Source of the DNA: Cupriavidus metallidurans CH34 | GTDB lineage: Bacteria; Pseudomonadota; Gammaproteobacteria; Burkholderiales; Burkholderiaceae | Assembly (NCBI RefSeq): GCF_000196015.1 | Contig: NC_007974.2 | Span: forward strand, 2,170,001 to 2,234,000 | Length of the DNA stretch: 64,000 nt | Reading direction: 5' to 3' | Made by a program: the position numbers and the translations under genes | In this document: in pieces, positions 5,135 to 63,993 of the stretch | Numbering within the stretch: the stretch's first letter is position 1 | Layout: every line of letters starts with the position of its first letter | Notes under the pieces: generated by a model | What the model was told of the DNA's origin: nothing | Seen by the model: the letters and a program-made list of their open reading frames with translations, nothing else | Databases searched by the model: none

Positions 5135-5509
5135 TCAGCCTAGCGGACGATGCCGTAGCCCGCCCGTGGGCGCGCCCGCCCCGACGGGCCTGAGTTCGCC
5201 GTCCCAAGGCTCGGCGCCCAGATCCAGCGCGGTGTCGCCTTCCTTGGTTTTCTCGTAGAGGTGGTCCCGGACTGCCTGCCCGATCGCCAGGCGGCATAGT
5301 GCCTCCGAGTTCGCTGCAATCTCGCCCTGAAGCGATCCCGCTCCGGTCACCACACCGAACGAACGCCTGCCATCACCGACAAAGCTGGTGAATCTGACGC
5401 CCGTGGGCTGGGCCGCATCCGCAAAGCTAACGGCCACATGATAGGCAATTCCCTTGCCCTGGCCGGGTAACGTGCACAGAAAACTGGATGGCGCGGCGGT
5501 GTTCGTCAT
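5135..5509 (-). CDS. Hypothetical protein
   Basis: A 124-residue soluble protein starting MTNTAAPSSFLCTLPG. The central part (AVSFADAAQPTGVRFTSFVG) looks like an alternating beta region, followed by a helical stretch containing SEALCRLAIGQAVRDHLYEK. A longer upstream in-frame ATG exists at 5590, but its extension (MSTDPGIVLASRRIQ) looks less protein-like. It has the same orientation as the next small gene. No function is proposed. Confidence 0.5.
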   Translation of the reverse strand: MTNTAAPSSFLCTLPGQGKGIAYHVAVSFADAAQPTGVRFTSFVGDGRRSFGVVTGAGSLQGEIAANSEALCRLAIGQAVRDHLYEKTKEGDTALDLGAEPWDGELRPVGAGAPTGGLRHRPLG

Positions 5510-5610: not shown

Positions 5611-5898
5611 TTACAGGGAAACAACGGACTGACCGGTCACTTCTCCGTTGATGATTTCCTCGGCATAGCGCAGCACGGCGCGCCGGGCGGCGCCCACGTT
5701 GTCCCAGGGCGTTGTGTCCAGGTGAAACGTGCGGGCCTGCGTGCTATCGGGATGCGCGCCCTCGCGGCAGATCACCACCGCAGCGTTGAAGGACCGATCC
5801 GGCCTGGGCTCCCCCCAGGCACGCGCCCCGTCGGTATGTCTGTAGACTAGAGGGTAAATGTCATACCCTTTGTAAGTGGCAGTCGGGTAAGCATCCAT
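5611..5898 (-). CDS. Hypothetical protein
   Basis: A 95-residue protein (MDAYPTATYKGYDIYPLVYR...) with beta-rich start and a central Asp/Trp/Asn stretch (HLDTTPWDNVGAARRAVLRY). The composition and the pattern of a strand followed by an amphipathic helix resemble small conserved Burkholderiaceae proteins of unknown function; this is recall, not a search result. No signal peptide or metal motif is seen. Confidence 0.55.
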   Translation of the reverse strand: MDAYPTATYKGYDIYPLVYRHTDGARAWGEPRPDRSFNAAVVICREGAHPDSTQARTFHLDTTPWDNVGAARRAVLRYAEEIINGEVTGQSVVSL

Positions 5899-6192
5899 AG
5901 CGTACTCCTAAGCTTTTGCGGTATTCATTGCTCACTCTACTCTTCTTGCGAGGCCAGGCGTGACCTAATTTCACCCTGCGAACATCTGCCAAGCCCGAAA
6001 ACAAGGGAGTTCGGCATTTCGAAGCTGCTGACTTGACTTGCACCGGCCAGGTCCGATCGAGTCGCCCCAGGGCTCCGTCCATAAGTCTTCGCGAAGAGCG
6101 GCCCCTAACAATCCGGACAAGTATCTGCCCGATTCTTCGTGTAGAAGAAATTTGTCCCGCGACACCCAATACTCAACCCCCGAGGAGTGACC

Positions 6193-10292: not shown

Positions 10293-12454
<2,162 letters not shown>

Positions 12455-44099: not shown

Positions 44100-44373
44100 C
44101 GGGTCAATTAGTAGTGGCTGGTCCATTTCTCCGGGAGCAGATTTTCCACGGACTTCCAGCACGGCGAGGGTAGGCGAAAGCAGGGTTGACAGACGCTGCA
44201 ACGCCTGAAGCGAGGACGGCCGTCTTGCGACCGGAAGCCGCCCTTGGATTCCGCCTGGCAACTTGTTCGCAAGATGGCGGAAATTCGGATTGCACCGGGC
44301 GGTGCGAAGATCTTCCACCATTACGGCGTCTTTTCCCGCGTTATATCTCATGCACGATCTACGTCACCTTGGT

Positions 44374-44640
44374 TATTCAAATTTAGTATCAATCATGAGA
44401 CTCAACCAGACGTATACGAGTAGGTCACACGTCGGCCGACCACAATGGTGACCGGCGGGAGTGCCCTGTCTTTCCAGATGAAAGGCTTCGGAGGTGACCG
44501 CTCCATTGGTCGGCTAGAAGACGGCAGCGATGGAGGGAGATTGGACGCTGTGGGGAAAGAGCTGAGACGTCCAACACGCAGGCGAAGATAGTGCGTGGCT
44601 CGAATGACTGTCGGAATCGTTGAATCTGGACGATGGAAGG
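44374..44640 (+). ncRNA. Conserved structured element, copy A (unknown RNA-like family)
   Basis: A 267-nt non-coding stretch that recurs, diverged, at 63727-63993. Stems visible here: GCCGACC-x2-AATGG (44435-44448) with CCATT-GGTCGGC (44503-44514); TTGGACG (44541-44547) with CGTCCAA (44568-44574); CACGCA (44575-44580) with TGCGTG (44592-44597); TCGT (44617-44620) with ACGA (44630-44633). In the other copy the same stems are kept with different bases, while loops such as GGCGAAGATAG are identical. This pattern is expected for a folded RNA (or folded single-stranded DNA). An AT-rich lead (ATTTAGTATCAATCA) is also conserved. Function unknown. Confidence 0.7.
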
Positions 44641-45194
44641 AGGCTCCCTATGCCGGTCCTAGGGGGCCTTCGGCATTGCCTTTCATCCCTAAAGGAAAGA
44701 TATCCTCCCAAAAACAGCGTAGAAATTGTCTCAATTGAGGATATGTATCTGGTTATTCCTGAGCCTCTGTGATCCCCTAGAGATTCTCCTATTGGAATAA
44801 CCCATTGAAGCAGCTACGCAGCGTTGATGCGCTCTCCTTGCCTCAGGTTTCCAGCTCCAATCCCGCTTCGCGGTCGGGCAGCCAGGGAAGGAGAGATGGA
44901 AGCGAGGCTCCCTTTACGCCCCTATTGGTAAGAGGTGCTCGCACGTTGCAGTCCTGCGCGTAATCCGCGCCGGCGTCCCCTCACCGTCTGCTTTGACCGA
45001 ATCCTGAGCTATTCCGGGGCATGAATCGGGGTGATTTGTCCGATTTGTGTAGGTTTCTTACCCCACTCTGTCCGAAAACTGTAGGTTGCTTCGCGGCTCC
45101 GGTTTCACAGCCGAGCCTCGGGGTCGGGGTTTCGAATACCGAATCTCGGGTCTCGCCCGCTCAGTGCTGAAATCGTCCACGACAGGGAGACTTT
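44641..45194. other. Non-coding stretch after structured element
   Basis: About 550 bases with no supported ORF. It contains several short palindromes, for example AATCCCGCTTCGCGG near 44865 and a TTTCGAATACCGAATCTCGG segment near 45130. It may contain the 3' part of a transcript starting at the structured element, or the promoter of the small ORF that follows. Confidence 0.35.
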
Positions 45195-52266: not shown

Positions 52267-53100
52267 TCACCGCCTGGCGCGGCGGTTCAGGGTTGCGCTG
52301 TAGGTTTCCAGATAGAGCTTCTCGTCGATCTGCGGTAGCTCCCGCTGCGCGGCCTGGGCCAGAAGCTCGCCCGCCAGGTTCATCAGGATGCGGTAATTGC
52401 CGGCGGCGTGCTCACACAGGGTCTGGCGCAATGGCATGGTCATCAGGGTGGCGTTGCCGGCGGCGGCCAGCAAGTGGTCCAGGCAGGCCTGCAGCTCGTC
52501 GATGCTCGCACTCTCCAGCGCCAGACGGCAGCGGATGCGGCTGCCCAGCGGGATCAGGTCCTCGCGGCTGAACTTCTCCGGCAGGCGAGCGTCGCCGGCA
52601 AGCACCACGCACAGCAGCAATTGCGAGTCGAAGCGTGCCTGTGCGAGCAGGCGCAGTTCCGAGAGGGCTGGCACCGCCATCTCCTGGGCTTCATCGATGA
52701 GCAGCACGCAGCGGCGGCGGCTGGCCTCCATGTGGGTGAGCCAGCGCTCGCGCAGCGCCTTGAAGCCGCCCCAGCGATTGTGGGGCTTGAGCGGTACGGT
52801 AAAGATGTCGCTGAGCTCGCGATAGAAGTCCGCCAGATTGCTCTGTGGGTGAGCGATCGAGCCGACCATCAGATCGGGGACGCGCATGAGGCGCTGATGG
52901 AGCAGGCGCAGCGTGACGCTCTTGCCGCAACCGGGGTCGCCATGCACCATGGCGAAGCCGCCTTCGCGGGCCATACCGTTCTCAATGCGCCAGCAGAAGT
53001 GATCGAGCTTGGGTGGCACGAACACGGCCTCGACGGGGATGTCCTGGGCGAAGGGGTTGAACTTCAGACCGTACAAGGCCAGCAGGTTGGGTTGATTCAT
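52267..53100 (-). CDS. ExeA/TniB-type AAA+ ATPase of transposon
   Basis: A 277-residue ATPase. Walker A is MVHGDPGCGKSVTLRLL and Walker B is CVLLIDEAQEMAVPALSEL, with sensor region LLCVVLAGDARLPEK. Such ATPases deliver the transposase to target DNA and control target choice (as TniB, IstB, MuB and TnsC do). It overlaps the transposase gene by four bases. Confidence 0.88.
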   Translation of the reverse strand: MNQPNLLALYGLKFNPFAQDIPVEAVFVPPKLDHFCWRIENGMAREGGFAMVHGDPGCGKSVTLRLLHQRLMRVPDLMVGSIAHPQSNLADFYRELSDIFTVPLKPHNRWGGFKALRERWLTHMEASRRRCVLLIDEAQEMAVPALSELRLLAQARFDSQLLLCVVLAGDARLPEKFSREDLIPLGSRIRCRLALESASIDELQACLDHLLAAAGNATLMTMPLRQTLCEHAAGNYRILMNLAGELLAQAAQRELPQIDEKLYLETYSATLNRRARR

Positions 53101-54536
53101 AGCTTGGTGGGTGCGGGTGGGAGATAGGCCGGCGGCAGGCCGGTGGCGGCGTGTTCGGCGAGCAACTGACGCAGCAGCGGCGCAGTGCCAGCCTGCGCGG
53201 GTTCCTCGTTAGCAGGCGAGGCACCCTTGGCCGTGAGATGCGCGCGCCGTGCGTCGGCATTGGCAGACTTGTCCAGCGGGAACACGGCGGCCAGGATCGC
53301 GCCGATGCGCGCATCGATCAGGTCGACTTGGGAGAGATCCCAGCGCGCGTAGCTCAGGCAGACTTGCTCGAGGTGGCGGTAAGCGCCGGGGATCTCGAAG
53401 CGCACGCCGTCCAACGTGAAGGTGCCGTCGGTTCTGCGCTGGCGGCGATGCTGGCGGATACGGAAGGCCCGGCGCAAGGCCAGCGCCTCGGGACTGGGGC
53501 GCGAGACGTCGGCACAGGACAGGTAGCGCTGCAGAGGCGTCGCCTCGAGTTCGGCGTGTTCCTTGTGGTGGTATTCCTGCTCGACCCAGGCCTGCGTGGC
53601 GAGGTTCAATTGCTCCAGGGTGAGGTGCGACTCACCTTCGAGCATGGCCATCAGCCGGGACTCGAGCTGTCCCCAGAAGCGTTCCTGCTTGGCATTCTGG
53701 TATGGGCTGTAGGGCAAGGTAGTCTGGTGCAGGATGCCCAGACTGGCCAGCCCCTCGACGAACTCGTCGGCCATCATGGCTGCGCCGTTATCGGTCATGA
53801 TGGCCCGCGGCAGCCCTCGCTTCATGATCGCCTGCGAGACGCCGTGCACCAGCGAGGCAGTGGTCTCGTCGAGGAACCACTGCAGGTGGCAGACCAGCCG
53901 CGAATGGTCGTCCATAATGCAGAGCAGCAGCGGCTTGTGCCACTGCCCATCGGGGGTGAGCACCTTGCGCGAACCATGGTGGAAGTCCAGGTGCCAGAGC
54001 GCGGCCACGTGGTCGACCTCGTAGCTACGCACCTCGCGTGCCTCGCGGCGAGCCGCAGCAGCGATGGCCCCATCCGTGCTCGAGCGCGGGGTTGGCTTGC
54101 GCACCAGACCCTGCGCCTTCAGATACCGGCACACCGTGGTGTAGGACGGCAGCGTGTCCGGGCCATCCTTGGTCGCGACGCGCAGGTTGTCGTAATGCAA
54201 CTGCATGGTCCAGCCGGGGTGCTGACGGTACTGCTCGACCAGCGCTTCGATGATGGCTGGGCTCAGACTGACGAAGTGGCCGCAATCGTCGCGCAGTCGG
54301 TTCTTGAGTTGATCGACCGGATCCTGGACGTGACGGGCCCGGTAATACCAGCGTTCGATGGAAGACGCGCCGAACTGAACGTCGGCGCCGGTGATGGGGT
54401 GCCGCCAGACCTTGGCGGCCAGTGCCTGGAACGCTTGCTGCAATTCTCCTTTGGCAGGCGGCGAAGCCAGCAAAGGGCCAATGACCGAGAAGCGCAAGCG
54501 CGCCCATCGGTTGCGATGATCAATCGATAGTGACAT
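53097..54536 (-). CDS. DDE integrase-core transposase of four-gene transposon
   Basis: A 479-residue transposase with an rve-type core. The acidic residues lie in ALWHLDFHHGSRKV, IMTDNGAAMMADEF and YSPYQNAKQERFWGQLES. The N-terminal half has HTH-type DNA-binding regions (YTTVCRYLKAQGLVRKP), and the C-terminal domain follows the Mu/Tn552 pattern. It is intact. The pairing with an AAA+ ATPase puts it near the Tn5053/Mu class rather than simple IS481 elements. Confidence 0.88.
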   Translation of the reverse strand: MSLSIDHRNRWARLRFSVIGPLLASPPAKGELQQAFQALAAKVWRHPITGADVQFGASSIERWYYRARHVQDPVDQLKNRLRDDCGHFVSLSPAIIEALVEQYRQHPGWTMQLHYDNLRVATKDGPDTLPSYTTVCRYLKAQGLVRKPTPRSSTDGAIAAAARREAREVRSYEVDHVAALWHLDFHHGSRKVLTPDGQWHKPLLLCIMDDHSRLVCHLQWFLDETTASLVHGVSQAIMKRGLPRAIMTDNGAAMMADEFVEGLASLGILHQTTLPYSPYQNAKQERFWGQLESRLMAMLEGESHLTLEQLNLATQAWVEQEYHHKEHAELEATPLQRYLSCADVSRPSPEALALRRAFRIRQHRRQRRTDGTFTLDGVRFEIPGAYRHLEQVCLSYARWDLSQVDLIDARIGAILAAVFPLDKSANADARRAHLTAKGASPANEEPAQAGTAPLLRQLLAEHAATGLPPAYLPPAPTKL

Positions 54537-58956: not shown

Positions 58957-60732
58957 TCAGTTCAACCGCGCTTGAAGCTCATCCACGAAGATTGACGAGT
59001 TGCCGTGTGTGTAGGCAATGTGGACCTCTGTTCTTGCTCGGCTTATGCCCACATAGAATAGCCGACGACTTTCATTGATCTCATCAGGTCTGGCGCCATT
59101 CCGTGGCAATCGCCCGTGATCAATCCCAAACAGAAATACGAAGCGAAACTCTCGGCCCTTTGCGCTGTGAAGCGTGGACAGCATCAGCCTGTCGAATGTA
59201 TGTTCGCCGGCAAACTCCGCAACAGTCATCTCCGCGTAGTCGGCATCCGGCGAGACTCTCTCCAGAAACGAACCCAGGATGTTGAGCTCATCCCTCAGGT
59301 TCGGCGATAGTTGGGCATGTTGGTCCAACACGGTGCGCTTGAATCGCTGTAGCCAGTCATAGAGCACCATGTCGGGTCTTCGCATCTCCCATAGACAAGC
59401 CACTAGCGCTCGATGAAATGCCGCTGCGTCCAATTCTGCTCGGATGGCGTCCCCGAACAGCCTTCGCCCCTCCGATACCAACTGGGAAAACCGTGGGCTA
59501 CCAGTCCGCCACCCTCCGCAACACCATTGAGCGCTCAGTTCCAACCATTGCATCAACCGGCTCGACCTGGGATATAGAGCGTTACCATCCGTCCGAATAA
59601 ACGGAACTCCGGCGTGGCGCGCCGCCTCTGCGACAGCATTGCCAATCCAGGCGGCGGGATACAAGACGGCAATTTCGTCGTAGCGAACACCTGGCTCACG
59701 CGCCATAGCGGCGGGAAGGAGGTCGGTCATGAGACGACGAGCCTGCACCTCGTAGCTACCCCCGAGGGAATGGAAGAAAATTTCACCCTGCGGCGCCCCG
59801 TCCACCGCCGCGTACCCGCGATCCACCCCAAGAACAGCGCCAGACGCGGCCACGATTCGATGTCCGCTCCGATAATTGAGCTGAAGGCGAATGATCTCCA
59901 CATCCTCCCTCTCGGCCAGACGCTGCAACATTTGCGGCTGAGCTCCAATGAAGCCGTAAATCGACTGGTCGACATCTCCCACTGCGAAAAGCCGCATACC
60001 AGCACTAAAGCAGAGGCCCATAACCATGCGGTGCAGAGCCGCACCGAGGTCCTGATACTCGTCAACGACCAGGACAGGGTATTTCGCAAGCAATGCTGTC
60101 TGAAGCCAAGGGTTCTCTCTCAGCGCACGAACTGCGAGAAGAGGCATGTCATCGAAGTCAATGAGCCCACGAACGCGGAGCTCGGCCTCATAGGCCTCAG
60201 CCAACCTTGCCAAACGAGGATTCGTATCCCGCCATAGGTCGCTGTCCCGATTAAGGATTGAGCGACGATAGCTCCCCATTTGCGAGCGTATGGTTTGCAG
60301 ATTGGGAACCGCACCCATGGCAACTTGGGCCGCATCGTCCAGAGCCGCAAGCGCTTCCGCATTGGTGGCGACACGGAAGTCATCTGGTAATCCCAAACCC
60401 GCCACCTTCGCGTAGGGCAAGATCACCTGCGTAAGCGAGAATGAGTGCACAGTTCCTACGAAAACACGCCCGCCTGGCTCTACGCCTAGCGAAGAAAGTC
60501 GTGCCTCTAGCTCACGAGCACACTCGTTGTTGTACGTAATGCATGCGACACCCCGCGGCTCGGCTACGTCCTCTGCGAGAAGCCGTGCCATCTTGGTAGT
60601 GAGAGTCTTCGTCTTGCCGCTACCAGGACCAGCCAAGACTACACAGTGTCCTCGCGACTCGTAAGCTGCCCACTGCCCAGGATTGTCGCGAAGCTCCTCG
60701 GCAGCTTGAAGATAGGCGGCGCGATTAGACAC
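58957..60732 (-). CDS. gajB: Gabija-type UvrD/PcrA-like helicase (GajB)
   Basis: A 591-residue superfamily 1 helicase. Walker A is VVLAGPGSGKTKTLTTKMAR (34-41 core), motif II is VLVVDEYQDLGAALH, motif III LFAVGDVDQSIYGFIGA, motif V STLHSAKGREFRFVFLFGID and motif VI RLFYVGISRARTEVHIAYTH. It lacks large 1B/2B insertions. It overlaps the OLD-nuclease gene by eight bases, which is the usual Gabija order gajA-gajB. In Gabija, GajB senses DNA ends or ssDNA and cooperates with GajA to abort phage infection. Confidence 0.88.
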   Translation of the reverse strand: MSNRAAYLQAAEELRDNPGQWAAYESRGHCVVLAGPGSGKTKTLTTKMARLLAEDVAEPRGVACITYNNECARELEARLSSLGVEPGGRVFVGTVHSFSLTQVILPYAKVAGLGLPDDFRVATNAEALAALDDAAQVAMGAVPNLQTIRSQMGSYRRSILNRDSDLWRDTNPRLARLAEAYEAELRVRGLIDFDDMPLLAVRALRENPWLQTALLAKYPVLVVDEYQDLGAALHRMVMGLCFSAGMRLFAVGDVDQSIYGFIGAQPQMLQRLAEREDVEIIRLQLNYRSGHRIVAASGAVLGVDRGYAAVDGAPQGEIFFHSLGGSYEVQARRLMTDLLPAAMAREPGVRYDEIAVLYPAAWIGNAVAEAARHAGVPFIRTDGNALYPRSSRLMQWLELSAQWCCGGWRTGSPRFSQLVSEGRRLFGDAIRAELDAAAFHRALVACLWEMRRPDMVLYDWLQRFKRTVLDQHAQLSPNLRDELNILGSFLERVSPDADYAEMTVAEFAGEHTFDRLMLSTLHSAKGREFRFVFLFGIDHGRLPRNGARPDEINESRRLFYVGISRARTEVHIAYTHGNSSIFVDELQARLN

Positions 60733-62521
60733 GATTGACTACGTAGGAGATCGCTTTAGATATGTATTCAGGAGGGATGGCACCCACAATCTTTGACGCT
60801 AGCCTCTGGGCAAAACGCCCCTTTCCGACACCATCGATAAGTTTCAAATAATTCTCGGCGTTCAACTTGTCAGGGTCGTCCTCCCATGCGTCGATCCACG
60901 CACGGCGTTCCTCGCTCCAATTCGACTCTCGAAGGGTTGCGATGATCTCGCCGGTAAAATCTTGGTCATCAAACAAGTCGACTTCCAACGTGACGAAGTT
61001 TGAAAAGATGCCGAAGTCCTCGCATCGCAAACAGAAGTCATCGTAGTCGGCTATGGCGACGAGTTCCTGAACCAATTTCGGCTGCGCAACTCCTGTAAGT
61101 GTCTGCTCGATGCTCTCGACCAGACGCCATGAGCGGTTAAAACCTAGCGGCTTCTTCCCCACTCTTGGGTCCCAGTCCGTAATGATGGAAAATGGGATGC
61201 CCAACGCCGTGAGGAACTTCGCATAGGGAGTGAAGTTCGTTCCCGACACCGAGCATATCGTAATACCCAGATGGTCAAGGTCGTGCCCCATCGAAGCGGC
61301 CATCACAGGCAACAAGAACTTCTCAGCGTCGCCCTCGACCAAGATGATGCCTCTAGCAAACAGCATTTCTGCCCGCGTAACGTCGAGATAGCGAGCGAGG
61401 TCATCTTCTTCATCCTCGGTGAGAGAAATTTCTGCAGAGGATGTCCCCACAGTGCCGTTCTGCGGAGACTCTCGCAATAGAACAAGGGACCTCAGAGGCG
61501 CCACACTCGCGATATGCGGCGAGTGTGTTGTAAGCATAAGGGAGAGTTGTTCACCTTGTGCTCCGGCCAAATCCTCAAATAGATGTCGATATACAGATCG
61601 TTGCAAGTGAGGATGCAGATGAGCTTCAGGTTCCTCGATGGCCAGCACCGTGTGGTCCCGACGGTTTTCACTCATCAACTGCTGCAGTTCGAGGGCCTTA
61701 AGGGTTAGAAACGCCACGTTGGCCGACCCTAAGCTCGCATCACCAATGGTTCTGAGGCCGCCATCGATGAGCAGCTTCAAATTTCTGATGAGCCTGGTTA
61801 CGTCGGTGGTGCCGAAGCCGAGAGCTGGCTGAATGTCCTGTTTAGGACCGCTCATGGAGACGAAGAGGTCTCTCAAACGCTGCTGGAGAGCCTGCACCGT
61901 CGGGAATTCGGCCAGTTGCTGCGTTGCTTGCTGAACCACATCCCTCACTTGCCCGAGGTCTTGGCTGGGAACTTCCGCAAATGCGCGCTCTAGCAAAGGC
62001 CGAAGTGGCGAACGGCGCCAAACTGCAAGGTCACCCTCAGCATCTCGCAAGGCTGGAAGCAGGTCCATTGCAACACGCCGGCGCACATCGTGCCCAAACC
62101 GCTTATTCTCCGACTCTCCCCCGAAACAGATGAACTCATAATCCTCATCAGCCTGCGGAAACCCAGCGAGGCCGGCGATAGGCCGGAACTCATAGGTTAG
62201 CCGCACGGTGTCAGGGTCATCGTCCAGCCGATAGTCGGTCAGGACAGCAAGCAAATCCATGTCGTTAGCAAACTCAATGAGTTCGACGAACACGGTAATG
62301 CGCTCGTCCTCTAGAGGCTCACCTAGGCCATCCCAAAAATCCCCTTGCCCCAACTGGCGAGCGCTATCAGGGAGGCTCGGATCCAAGATAAGGCGCAGGG
62401 CGAAGAGCAGGTTGCTCTTGCCAACCCTGTTTTCGCCGACCACAACTACACTTCCGTCCAATGCAACGTCAATCTGTTCGAAGTTGCGGAAGTTGCTGAT
62501 ATAGATGCGCTTCAACTTCAT
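60725..62521 (-). CDS. gajA: Gabija-type OLD-family ATPase/TOPRIM nuclease (GajA)
   Basis: A 598-residue class 2 OLD protein. The ABC-type ATPase has Walker A VVVVGENRVGKSNLLFALRL (29-36 core) and VLAIEEPEAHLHPHLQ as Walker B, with the signature-like NVAFLTLKALELQ between. The C-terminal TOPRIM has LFARGIILVEGDAEKFLLPV with its Glu and IITDWDPRVGKK with the Asp pair. GajA is a sequence-specific DNA nicking enzyme inhibited by nucleotides; phage depletion of NTPs activates it. It is the first gene of the operon. Confidence 0.9.
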   Translation of the reverse strand: MKLKRIYISNFRNFEQIDVALDGSVVVVGENRVGKSNLLFALRLILDPSLPDSARQLGQGDFWDGLGEPLEDERITVFVELIEFANDMDLLAVLTDYRLDDDPDTVRLTYEFRPIAGLAGFPQADEDYEFICFGGESENKRFGHDVRRRVAMDLLPALRDAEGDLAVWRRSPLRPLLERAFAEVPSQDLGQVRDVVQQATQQLAEFPTVQALQQRLRDLFVSMSGPKQDIQPALGFGTTDVTRLIRNLKLLIDGGLRTIGDASLGSANVAFLTLKALELQQLMSENRRDHTVLAIEEPEAHLHPHLQRSVYRHLFEDLAGAQGEQLSLMLTTHSPHIASVAPLRSLVLLRESPQNGTVGTSSAEISLTEDEEDDLARYLDVTRAEMLFARGIILVEGDAEKFLLPVMAASMGHDLDHLGITICSVSGTNFTPYAKFLTALGIPFSIITDWDPRVGKKPLGFNRSWRLVESIEQTLTGVAQPKLVQELVAIADYDDFCLRCEDFGIFSNFVTLEVDLFDDQDFTGEIIATLRESNWSEERRAWIDAWEDDPDKLNAENYLKLIDGVGKGRFAQRLASKIVGAIPPEYISKAISYVVNRV

Positions 62522-63726: not shown

Positions 63727-63993
63727 TATTCGAATTTAGTATCAATCACACCCCTCCAGCGAACGTATACGTGTATGTCACACGTCGGCCGACCACAATG
63801 GCGACCCGGCGGGAGTGCCCAGCCTTTCAAGCGTGAAGGCTTCGGTGGTGACCGCCTCGTTGGTCGGCTTGATACGGCAGCGGCGAGGGGATACTGGTCT
63901 CTGTGGGGGGAGAGCTGAGAAGACCAGCGTGCGGGCGAAGATAGCGCACGGCTCGAAATGACTGTCGGAATCAGCGTGTTGGCTGATGGAAGG
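63727..63993 (+). ncRNA. Conserved structured element, copy B (unknown RNA-like family)
   Basis: Also 267 nt and collinear with copy A. Its stems: GCCGACC-x2-AATGG (63788-63801) with TCGTT-GGTCGGC (63857-63868); CTGGTCT (63894-63900) with AGACCAG (63921-63927); CGTGCG (63928-63933) with CGCACG (63945-63950); TCAGC (63971-63975) with GCTGA (63982-63986). Against copy A eight pairs change on both sides and stay complementary, and others stay as wobble pairs. The 20-nt loop after the first arm of the second stem and the 11-nt loop GGCGAAGATAG are nearly or fully unchanged. It lies at the right edge of the window; anything it is attached to downstream is not visible. Confidence 0.7.

Follow-up and report, generated by a model that had tools for sequence, protein, structure and literature searches.

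The Betaproteobacteria-1 RNA (RF02932) of Cupriavidus metallidurans CH34 is a stand-alone structured RNA carried by mobile DNA

Here, we have analysed 64,000 nucleotides of contig NC_007974.2 of C. metallidurans CH34 (the window) and found that a non-coding element present there in two copies is a real stand-alone structured RNA of the family RF02932, carried by mobile DNA. The identity of the RNA as RF02932 and its fold are firm, as is its patchy and mobile distribution, and its status as an RF02932 RNA of mobile elements is highly probable. The two copies lie on the + strand at 44374-44640 and 63727-63993, with a spacing of 19.35 kb, and both were present where an earlier note, made from the sequence alone, had placed them. 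They are 77% identical across 396 aligned bases, and many of the differences sit in paired arms.

Both copies were assigned by cmscan to RF02932, "Betaproteobacteria-1", with 94.9 and 80.7 bits at a gathering cut-off of 49.4, so that the earlier description of the RNA as undescribed is wrong; an assignment of this kind was one of the outcomes that the earlier note had itself named as refuting it. The matches cover the full model (positions 1-120), and no broken pair was marked when copy 1 was aligned to it. That the element resembles neither 6S, tmRNA, RNase P and group I/II introns nor HEARO was borne out by the Rfam models: no family but RF02932 reached the gathering level in the window, and under relaxed settings (E up to 1) it was still alone at 44300-44760. 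It was not found in 14 well-known control genomes. A search by name, accession and related phrases found no paper on RF02932 in the open-licence literature; its source is presumably a 2017 study of 224 candidate RNAs in Nucleic Acids Research. The Rfam match spans 118 of the 267 bases originally delimited, and the element is larger.

The fold was followed in two alignments. The first, A2, contains 35 of 39 RF02932 matches from 26 genomes, including both window copies and leaving out G006, G066, G078:C7 and the second G007 copy, which are weak or short. The second, A5, contains 44 RNAs, 41 from phages and three bacterial, is without the window copies and has one row in common with A2. The features of the copies, together with the paired share of each helix, are as follows.

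44413-44418, + strand: TATACG, conserved -10-like box of copy 1; the Rfam match starts 86 bases further on
44425-44490, + strand: 5' domain of copy 1, varying between relatives (read from the sequence; putative transcript start)
44491-44620, + strand: core of copy 1 by model R1 (128 bits, E 1.6e-33; the copy is among the 35 rows of R1)
44499-44616, + strand: RF02932 match of copy 1, 94.9 bits
44501-44508 with 44528-44535, + strand: P1, 97.9% of cells paired in A2
44541-44547 with 44568-44574, + strand: P2, stem 2 of the earlier note, 89.9% paired in A2
44559-44562 (GAGC, P2 loop) with 44598-44601 (GCTC), + strand: pseudoknot A, 92.9% paired in A2
44575-44580 with 44592-44597, + strand: P3, stem 3 of the earlier note, 95.7% paired in A2
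44587-44591 (GATAG) with 44608-44612 (CTGTC), + strand: P4, interlocked with P3, 94.9% paired in A2
44616-44620 (ATCGT) with 44630-44634 (ACGAT), + strand: P5, stem 4 of the earlier note, 84.8% paired in A5
44642-44725, + strand: 3' region of copy 1, shared in similar form by Cupriavidus-type relatives
44751-44802, + strand: inverted repeat GGTTATTCC ... GGAATAACC, flanking a variable stretch in Cupriavidus-type copies
44863-44886, + strand: subtype-specific hairpin motif CCGCTTCGCGGTCGGGCAGCCAGG, from a sequence search of the genome
63766-63771, + strand: TATACG, -10-like box of copy 2 (compare the TATAC count in relatives, below)
63845-63974, + strand: core of copy 2 by model R1 (132.3 bits, E 1e-34; also a row of R1)
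63853-63970, + strand: RF02932 match of copy 2, 80.7 bits

The similar region of copy 2 continues beyond the window end, as seen in the locus extract that reaches past it (L002).

Covariation in both alignments supports the claim of a structured non-coding RNA. In A2, P1-P4 and pseudoknot A have 94.5% standard pairs and a covariation of 0.686, compared with 0.218 in shuffled controls, which do not preserve the relatedness of rows, and at most 0.149 with slid partners, a comparison that favours the helices because they were chosen by pairing frequency on the very alignments counted. With the same bearing of the controls, P1-P4 alone reach 94.8% paired cells and 0.663 (0.210 shuffled), and P2-P5 with pseudoknot A reach 91.8% and 0.628 in A5 (0.169 shuffled, at most 0.141 slid); P1 was counted on A2 only. 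The earlier note had proposed R-scape for this check, which the RNA passed with these simple controls in its place. Changes on both sides were found in A2 in 6 of 8 pairs of P1, 6 of 6 counted pairs of P2, 3 of 4 counted pairs of P3, 1 of 5 pairs of P4 and 4 of 4 pairs of pseudoknot A. In the phage-rich A5, the corresponding figures are 4 of 4 for pseudoknot A (89.8% paired), 2 of 6 for P4 (97.7% paired) and 4 of 4 for P5.

A5 reproduced P2, P3 and P4 of A2 and added two new helices, P5 and pseudoknot A, in which the P2 loop pairs with a stretch 3' of P3; pseudoknot A, first seen in A5, also holds in A2. P3 and P4 interlock as an H-type pseudoknot (pseudoknot B). The agreement of two largely different sets of RNAs is a stronger argument than the shuffle controls, and an architecture of two interlocked pseudoknots with a further 3' helix is supported. 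RF02932 and this fuller fold have P1, P2 and P4 in common, all of which covary; the structure line of the 120-position model is without P3, pseudoknot A and P5.

Three of the stems drawn by the earlier note are helices of the family and are present in both copies: TTGGACG/CGTCCAA in copy 1 and CTGGTCT/AGACCAG in copy 2 form P2, CACGCA/TGCGTG and CGTGCG/CGCACG form P3, and TCGT/ACGA and TCAGC/GCTGA form P5. The loops that it had singled out, GGCGAAGATAG and GAGCTGAGA, are indeed conserved, yet they hold pairing bases, GATAG for CTGTC and GAGC for GCTC. Its long-range stem GCCGACC/GGTCGGC, with the AATGG/CCATT extension, reuses bases of the P1 hairpin (CTCCATTG/CGATGGAG), which covaries; the long-range stem competes with P1 and is unproven. 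By eye, both window copies are able to form every helix of the family, and that two diverged copies could do so speaks for a retained function.

For a more detailed look at the element, we used 81 chromosomal loci, made up of 37 of the 39 RF02932 matches (G006 and G066 dropped) and 44 matches of R1; several further family-level R1 matches, mostly weak, stand outside this set. Among the chromosomal copy pairs listed, homology in many cases begins about 90-130 bases 5' of the core and ends 250-460 bases past the core start. In 41 of the 81 loci, a TATAC begins 82-105 bases ahead of the core, compared with 0/80, 0/80, 0/78 and 0/78 in four control windows, and the TATACG boxes of the window agree with it in position; the form in which T, C or G is the next base, to which TATACG belongs, occurs in at most 24 of the 81. 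At the window copy, a scan found no full sigma-70 consensus and no terminator was recognised, and we therefore only infer transcription of the RNA from its own promoter.

The distribution of the RNA is patchy. With the own genome counted each time, RF02932 was found in 28 of 298 near relatives, and R1 matched 63 of the 398 genomes of the Burkholderiaceae and, at order level, 5 of 399; 23 of the 63 positive Burkholderiaceae genomes have at least two matches. A stretch of 321 bases of the window element is 100% identical to NZ_CP046333.1. A DNA similarity search of plasmids with the window element gave two Cupriavidus records, and the same kind of search gave nothing for the RNA types of G164 and G161.

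No constant protein partner was found among 143 neighbour proteins of the chromosomal loci. These are 143 of the 152 nearest proteins, and since three TniQ stand among the nine left out (with two phosphatase-like proteins and four others), tns genes are undercounted. The 25 commonest Pfam families listed are diverse (LysR-type 8, H-NS 7, MFS 5 and rve 3, for example) and include neither a recombinase nor a Cas family, and the 25 commonest PADLOC and PHROG families listed are scattered too. Of the window proteins near the copies, 10 were compared with phage families, and none had a match at E 0.001.

Several observations on single loci are recorded here in their own right. The window carries a Gabija-like pair, a UvrD-like helicase and an OLD/TOPRIM ATPase, at 58960-62521 on the - strand, about 1.3 kb from copy 2; one neighbour protein of the chromosomal loci matched the PADLOC GajA models. 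Encoded opposite to the RNA, between its two window copies, is a pair of an AAA ATPase and an rve transposase (52270-54536, - strand), and none of the four ORFs adjoining this pair had a TniQ match. H-NS, with 7 of the 143 proteins, is among the commonest neighbour families, and a 314-residue ORF between two RNAs 3.3 kb apart (L144, 7027-7968, - strand) is H-NS-like by eye. In one locus (L054, G018:C33), an array of palindromic GAGGATATCCTC-like repeats that resemble protein-binding sites lies 3' of the RNA. A protein of about 1050 residues, a candidate DnaE2, recurs whole or in pieces near the RNA in L036 (G121), L032 and L067 (G078), and once terminates exactly at an RNA remnant.

The RNA is also carried by phages. 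An 18-base pattern gave at least 120 stretches in viral contigs, 80 of which were taken as loci and 60 of these confirmed by R1, a proportion that measures the quality of the pattern and not the frequency of the RNA in viruses; a second viral pattern gave no result. DNA queries of the viral type matched two named phages. Similarity searches gave nothing in phage DNA for the window and G161 RNA types, and nothing in E. coli DNA for one viral-type query. In Acidovorax phage AP1, the RNA lies in an unannotated gap at 11848-11983 and follows genes for a plasmid replication/partition related protein, a helicase and a primase, all on one strand. In the phage record MW202545, it lies at 5825-5954 on the minus strand among annotated hypothetical genes. 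Of 194 phage-neighbour proteins, 148 were scanned, and the commonest families listed include helicases, primases, replication initiators, RusA and NinB.

Immediately 3' of the RNA, 53 phage loci have an AT content of 0.55-0.60 and a purine content of up to 0.64; further downstream the values are about 0.46 and 0.55. The 81 chromosomal loci share the rise in AT content, but purines rise only a little there. In the half of AP1 examined, the cumulative GC-skew minimum falls 2-4 kb ahead of the RNA, at 8-10 kb, a position confounded by gene direction.

Since the phage copies sit near replication genes, we infer the function of the RNA from them. We argue that the RNA would be transcribed from its own promoter and act in trans as a scaffold for a DNA replication or recombination protein. 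In phages, its role would probably be around the start of phage DNA replication, because AT- and purine-rich DNA lies past its 3' end, and the twin repeats described below could be an address for phage-specific proteins. The window copies would most likely be accessories or leftovers of mobile elements, possibly decoys that burden incoming phages; the most economical guess is that they serve as decoy or accessory, and they may be a functionless leftover. Against this explanation weigh the diverse chromosomal neighbours with no constant protein partner, the 10 window proteins without a phage-family match, the small purine rise in the chromosomal loci, the place of the GC-skew minimum in AP1 and the twin repeats, for which no complement was found inside the RNA. 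This explanation as a whole, a mobile RF02932 RNA that acts as a scaffold in trans, with window copies that are accessory, leftover or decoy, is held tentatively, at somewhat less than even confidence. Of its parts, a replication-linked mechanism is possible though doubtful, and the decoy step of the window copies is more doubtful than that.

The phage context could also be read differently, with the RNA serving counter-defence or host takeover: phages would make it early, and transposons and islands would carry it as cargo. Its position among phage replication genes, its occurrence in unrelated mobile elements and the conserved TATAC box, which suggests its own promoter, speak for this. No anti-defence protein was noticed in linkage with the RNA, however, and the Gabija-like pair beside copy 2 would be equally expected in any island; we consider this reading unlikely.

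Another context of the RNA is that of Tn7-like elements. In six genomes, a row of tnsA-like, tnsB, tnsC (TniB) and tniQ genes lies past the RNA 3' end on the other strand; the label tnsA is from size and position, as Pfam gave no match. For the tniQ family of this row, the named genomes scanned have 37 loci, and in 14 of these R1 detects the RNA, which in every case lies 155-2305 bases beyond tniQ and is convergent to it. In a second lineage, which has a shorter tniQ, tniQ is on the 3' side of the RNA in two loci (G135 and G087) and on the 5' side in four. Within 20 kb, 19 of 20 contigs have the RNA and its nearest TniQ on opposite strands, TniQ lying 3' in 14, and within 150 kb 23 of 28 do; as the contigs are related, these counts are given without a probability. 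Downstream of tniQ, L044 (9089-9688, + strand) and its relatives encode a small protein whose match to dual-specificity phosphatases is weak.

Among the best 22 pairs of these loci, six have an RNA block more similar than the tns block. In one of them (L075/L079), the RNA is nearly identical while the surrounding 9.2 kb block is 76% identical, which suggests that the RNA alone may have been exchanged recently; in five further pairs the RNA block exceeds the tns block in similarity by 1 to 16 points, and other pairs, e.g. L075/L086, gave no RNA block. The idea that the RNA is a guide was rejected: exact matches of at least 14 bases between the surroundings and the own locus were RNA copies and scattered singles. 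As to transposon ends, left homology edges lie near 5480 in several tniQ loci, and no shared right end was found there, nor by an 18-base repeat search of 11 loci.

The convergent position beyond tniQ, the prevalence of opposite strands and the more similar RNA blocks, together with the 3' position of tniQ in G135 and G087, would be consistent with an RNA, or its DNA, that is part of Tn7-like transposition and helps TniQ/TnsC to choose or mark the target. However, the RNA is not constantly present in the element: it is absent from 23 of the 37 tniQ loci (R1 matches at E 0.46 or worse), several of which are cut or truncated, and a TniQ-like gene was found in only 14 of the 81 RNA loci, in stretches mostly up to 10 kb each way. 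Moreover, phages carry the RNA too, four second-lineage loci have tniQ on the 5' side, no guide match recurs and no transposon end could be fixed. This role is thus quite unlikely. In type V-K CRISPR-associated transposons, a tracrRNA and a CRISPR lie beyond tniQ in a tnsB-tnsC-tniQ element; here, the RNA likewise stands beyond tniQ, but it is convergent to that gene and the row includes a tnsA-like gene. No Cas protein or CRISPR was noticed in passing. Tn7-like transposons with a core of tnsA/B/C and tniQ and a varied cargo, as seen here, have been surveyed by Benler et al. 2021 (PMC8649781). That work used Rfam to annotate non-coding RNAs, and RF02932 is not named in the parts of it drawn on here.

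That the RNA is instead a cis-acting leader (attenuator, antiterminator or riboswitch) of the following operon would agree with the phage loci, where the next gene is on the same strand in 44 of 56 and on the opposite strand in 12 (near-duplicates kept), and with a terminator-like hairpin and T run directly 5' of the core in several of 20 phage copies (L207, L184, L226, L236 and others). In the 78 chromosomal loci for which a downstream gene is listed, however, that gene is on the same strand in 43 and on the opposite strand in 35, the chromosomal neighbours are diverse and no terminator was recognised in the window copy, which makes a leader improbable.

We would like to point out the twin repeats of the phage RNAs, a short word that follows GGCUCC and comes again after CACC in the 3' domain. 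The word is identical within one phage RNA and differs between RNAs, and its two occurrences are 47-71 bases apart in 31 phage RNAs. Both anchors were found in 92 of 151 loci, giving 79 distinct RNAs from which identical pairs had been thinned and among which related RNAs were kept. Among 42 distinct phage RNAs, the longest run common to the two words averages 6.83 bases, compared with 3.64 after shuffling (maximum 4.48 of 1000), and it reaches at least 6 in 31 of the 42. In 30 chromosomal RNAs, a set in which the anchor expressions misplace some anchors, the mean is 3.87 compared with 3.06 (maximum 3.77), and in 7 Tn7-linked RNAs, 4.71 compared with 3.80 (maximum 4.86), which is not beyond the shuffles. 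For the 31 phage RNAs, no complement of the repeats beyond shuffles was found in the 5' domain and core, in the stretch between the repeats or in the 400 bases downstream.

Neither window copy belongs to the 79 distinct RNAs that carry both anchors, and the two fall outside the phage-type subgroup. In place of twin repeats the window copies have inverted repeats and the hairpin motif CCGCTTCGCGGTCGGGCAGCCAGG, which with up to 2 mismatches occurs 3 times in the 6.9 Mb genome, each time downstream of the two RNA copies. We conclude that they are a solitary derived subtype without twin repeats. That the conserved entity is the DNA, as a recombination or single-strand origin site with a folding strand, would fit the twin direct repeats, the inverted repeats and hairpin motif that follow the element and the single direction of copies in 10 of 11 contigs with at least two (the exception is G594:C10), but on one strand some positions often hold G-U pairs, which, like the TATAC box, points to RNA, and no recombinase is among the commonest neighbour families listed, so that this is at least as improbable as a leader.

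The reading that we prefer remains that of a mobile RF02932 RNA acting in trans. GOLLD, ROOL and OLE are large ornate structured RNAs of bacteria and phages, of unclear function, some of which occur in phages; their Rfam models have no match in the window, and the phage-aligned part of the present RNA, whose 5' domain and twin repeats are absent from the RF02932 model, is about 210 bases. No printed link of RF02932 to phages or Tn7-like elements was found in the open-licence literature. As a very improbable extension, RF02932 could be an addressable RNA, in which the twin repeats are a programmable address for proteins of replication or of the TniQ/TnsC type in phages and in apparently Cas-less Tn7-like elements.

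An orphan family thus gains a fuller architecture, a phage replication context and an unexpected second context beside Tn7-like tniQ, and with these the function of the RNA becomes directly testable in a phage. If the RNA were addressable, phages and Tn7-like elements would share an RNA-based choice of where DNA synthesis or insertion starts, and twin repeats that act as an address would constitute an RNA-based specificity system outside CRISPR, IS110 and TnpB/IscB.
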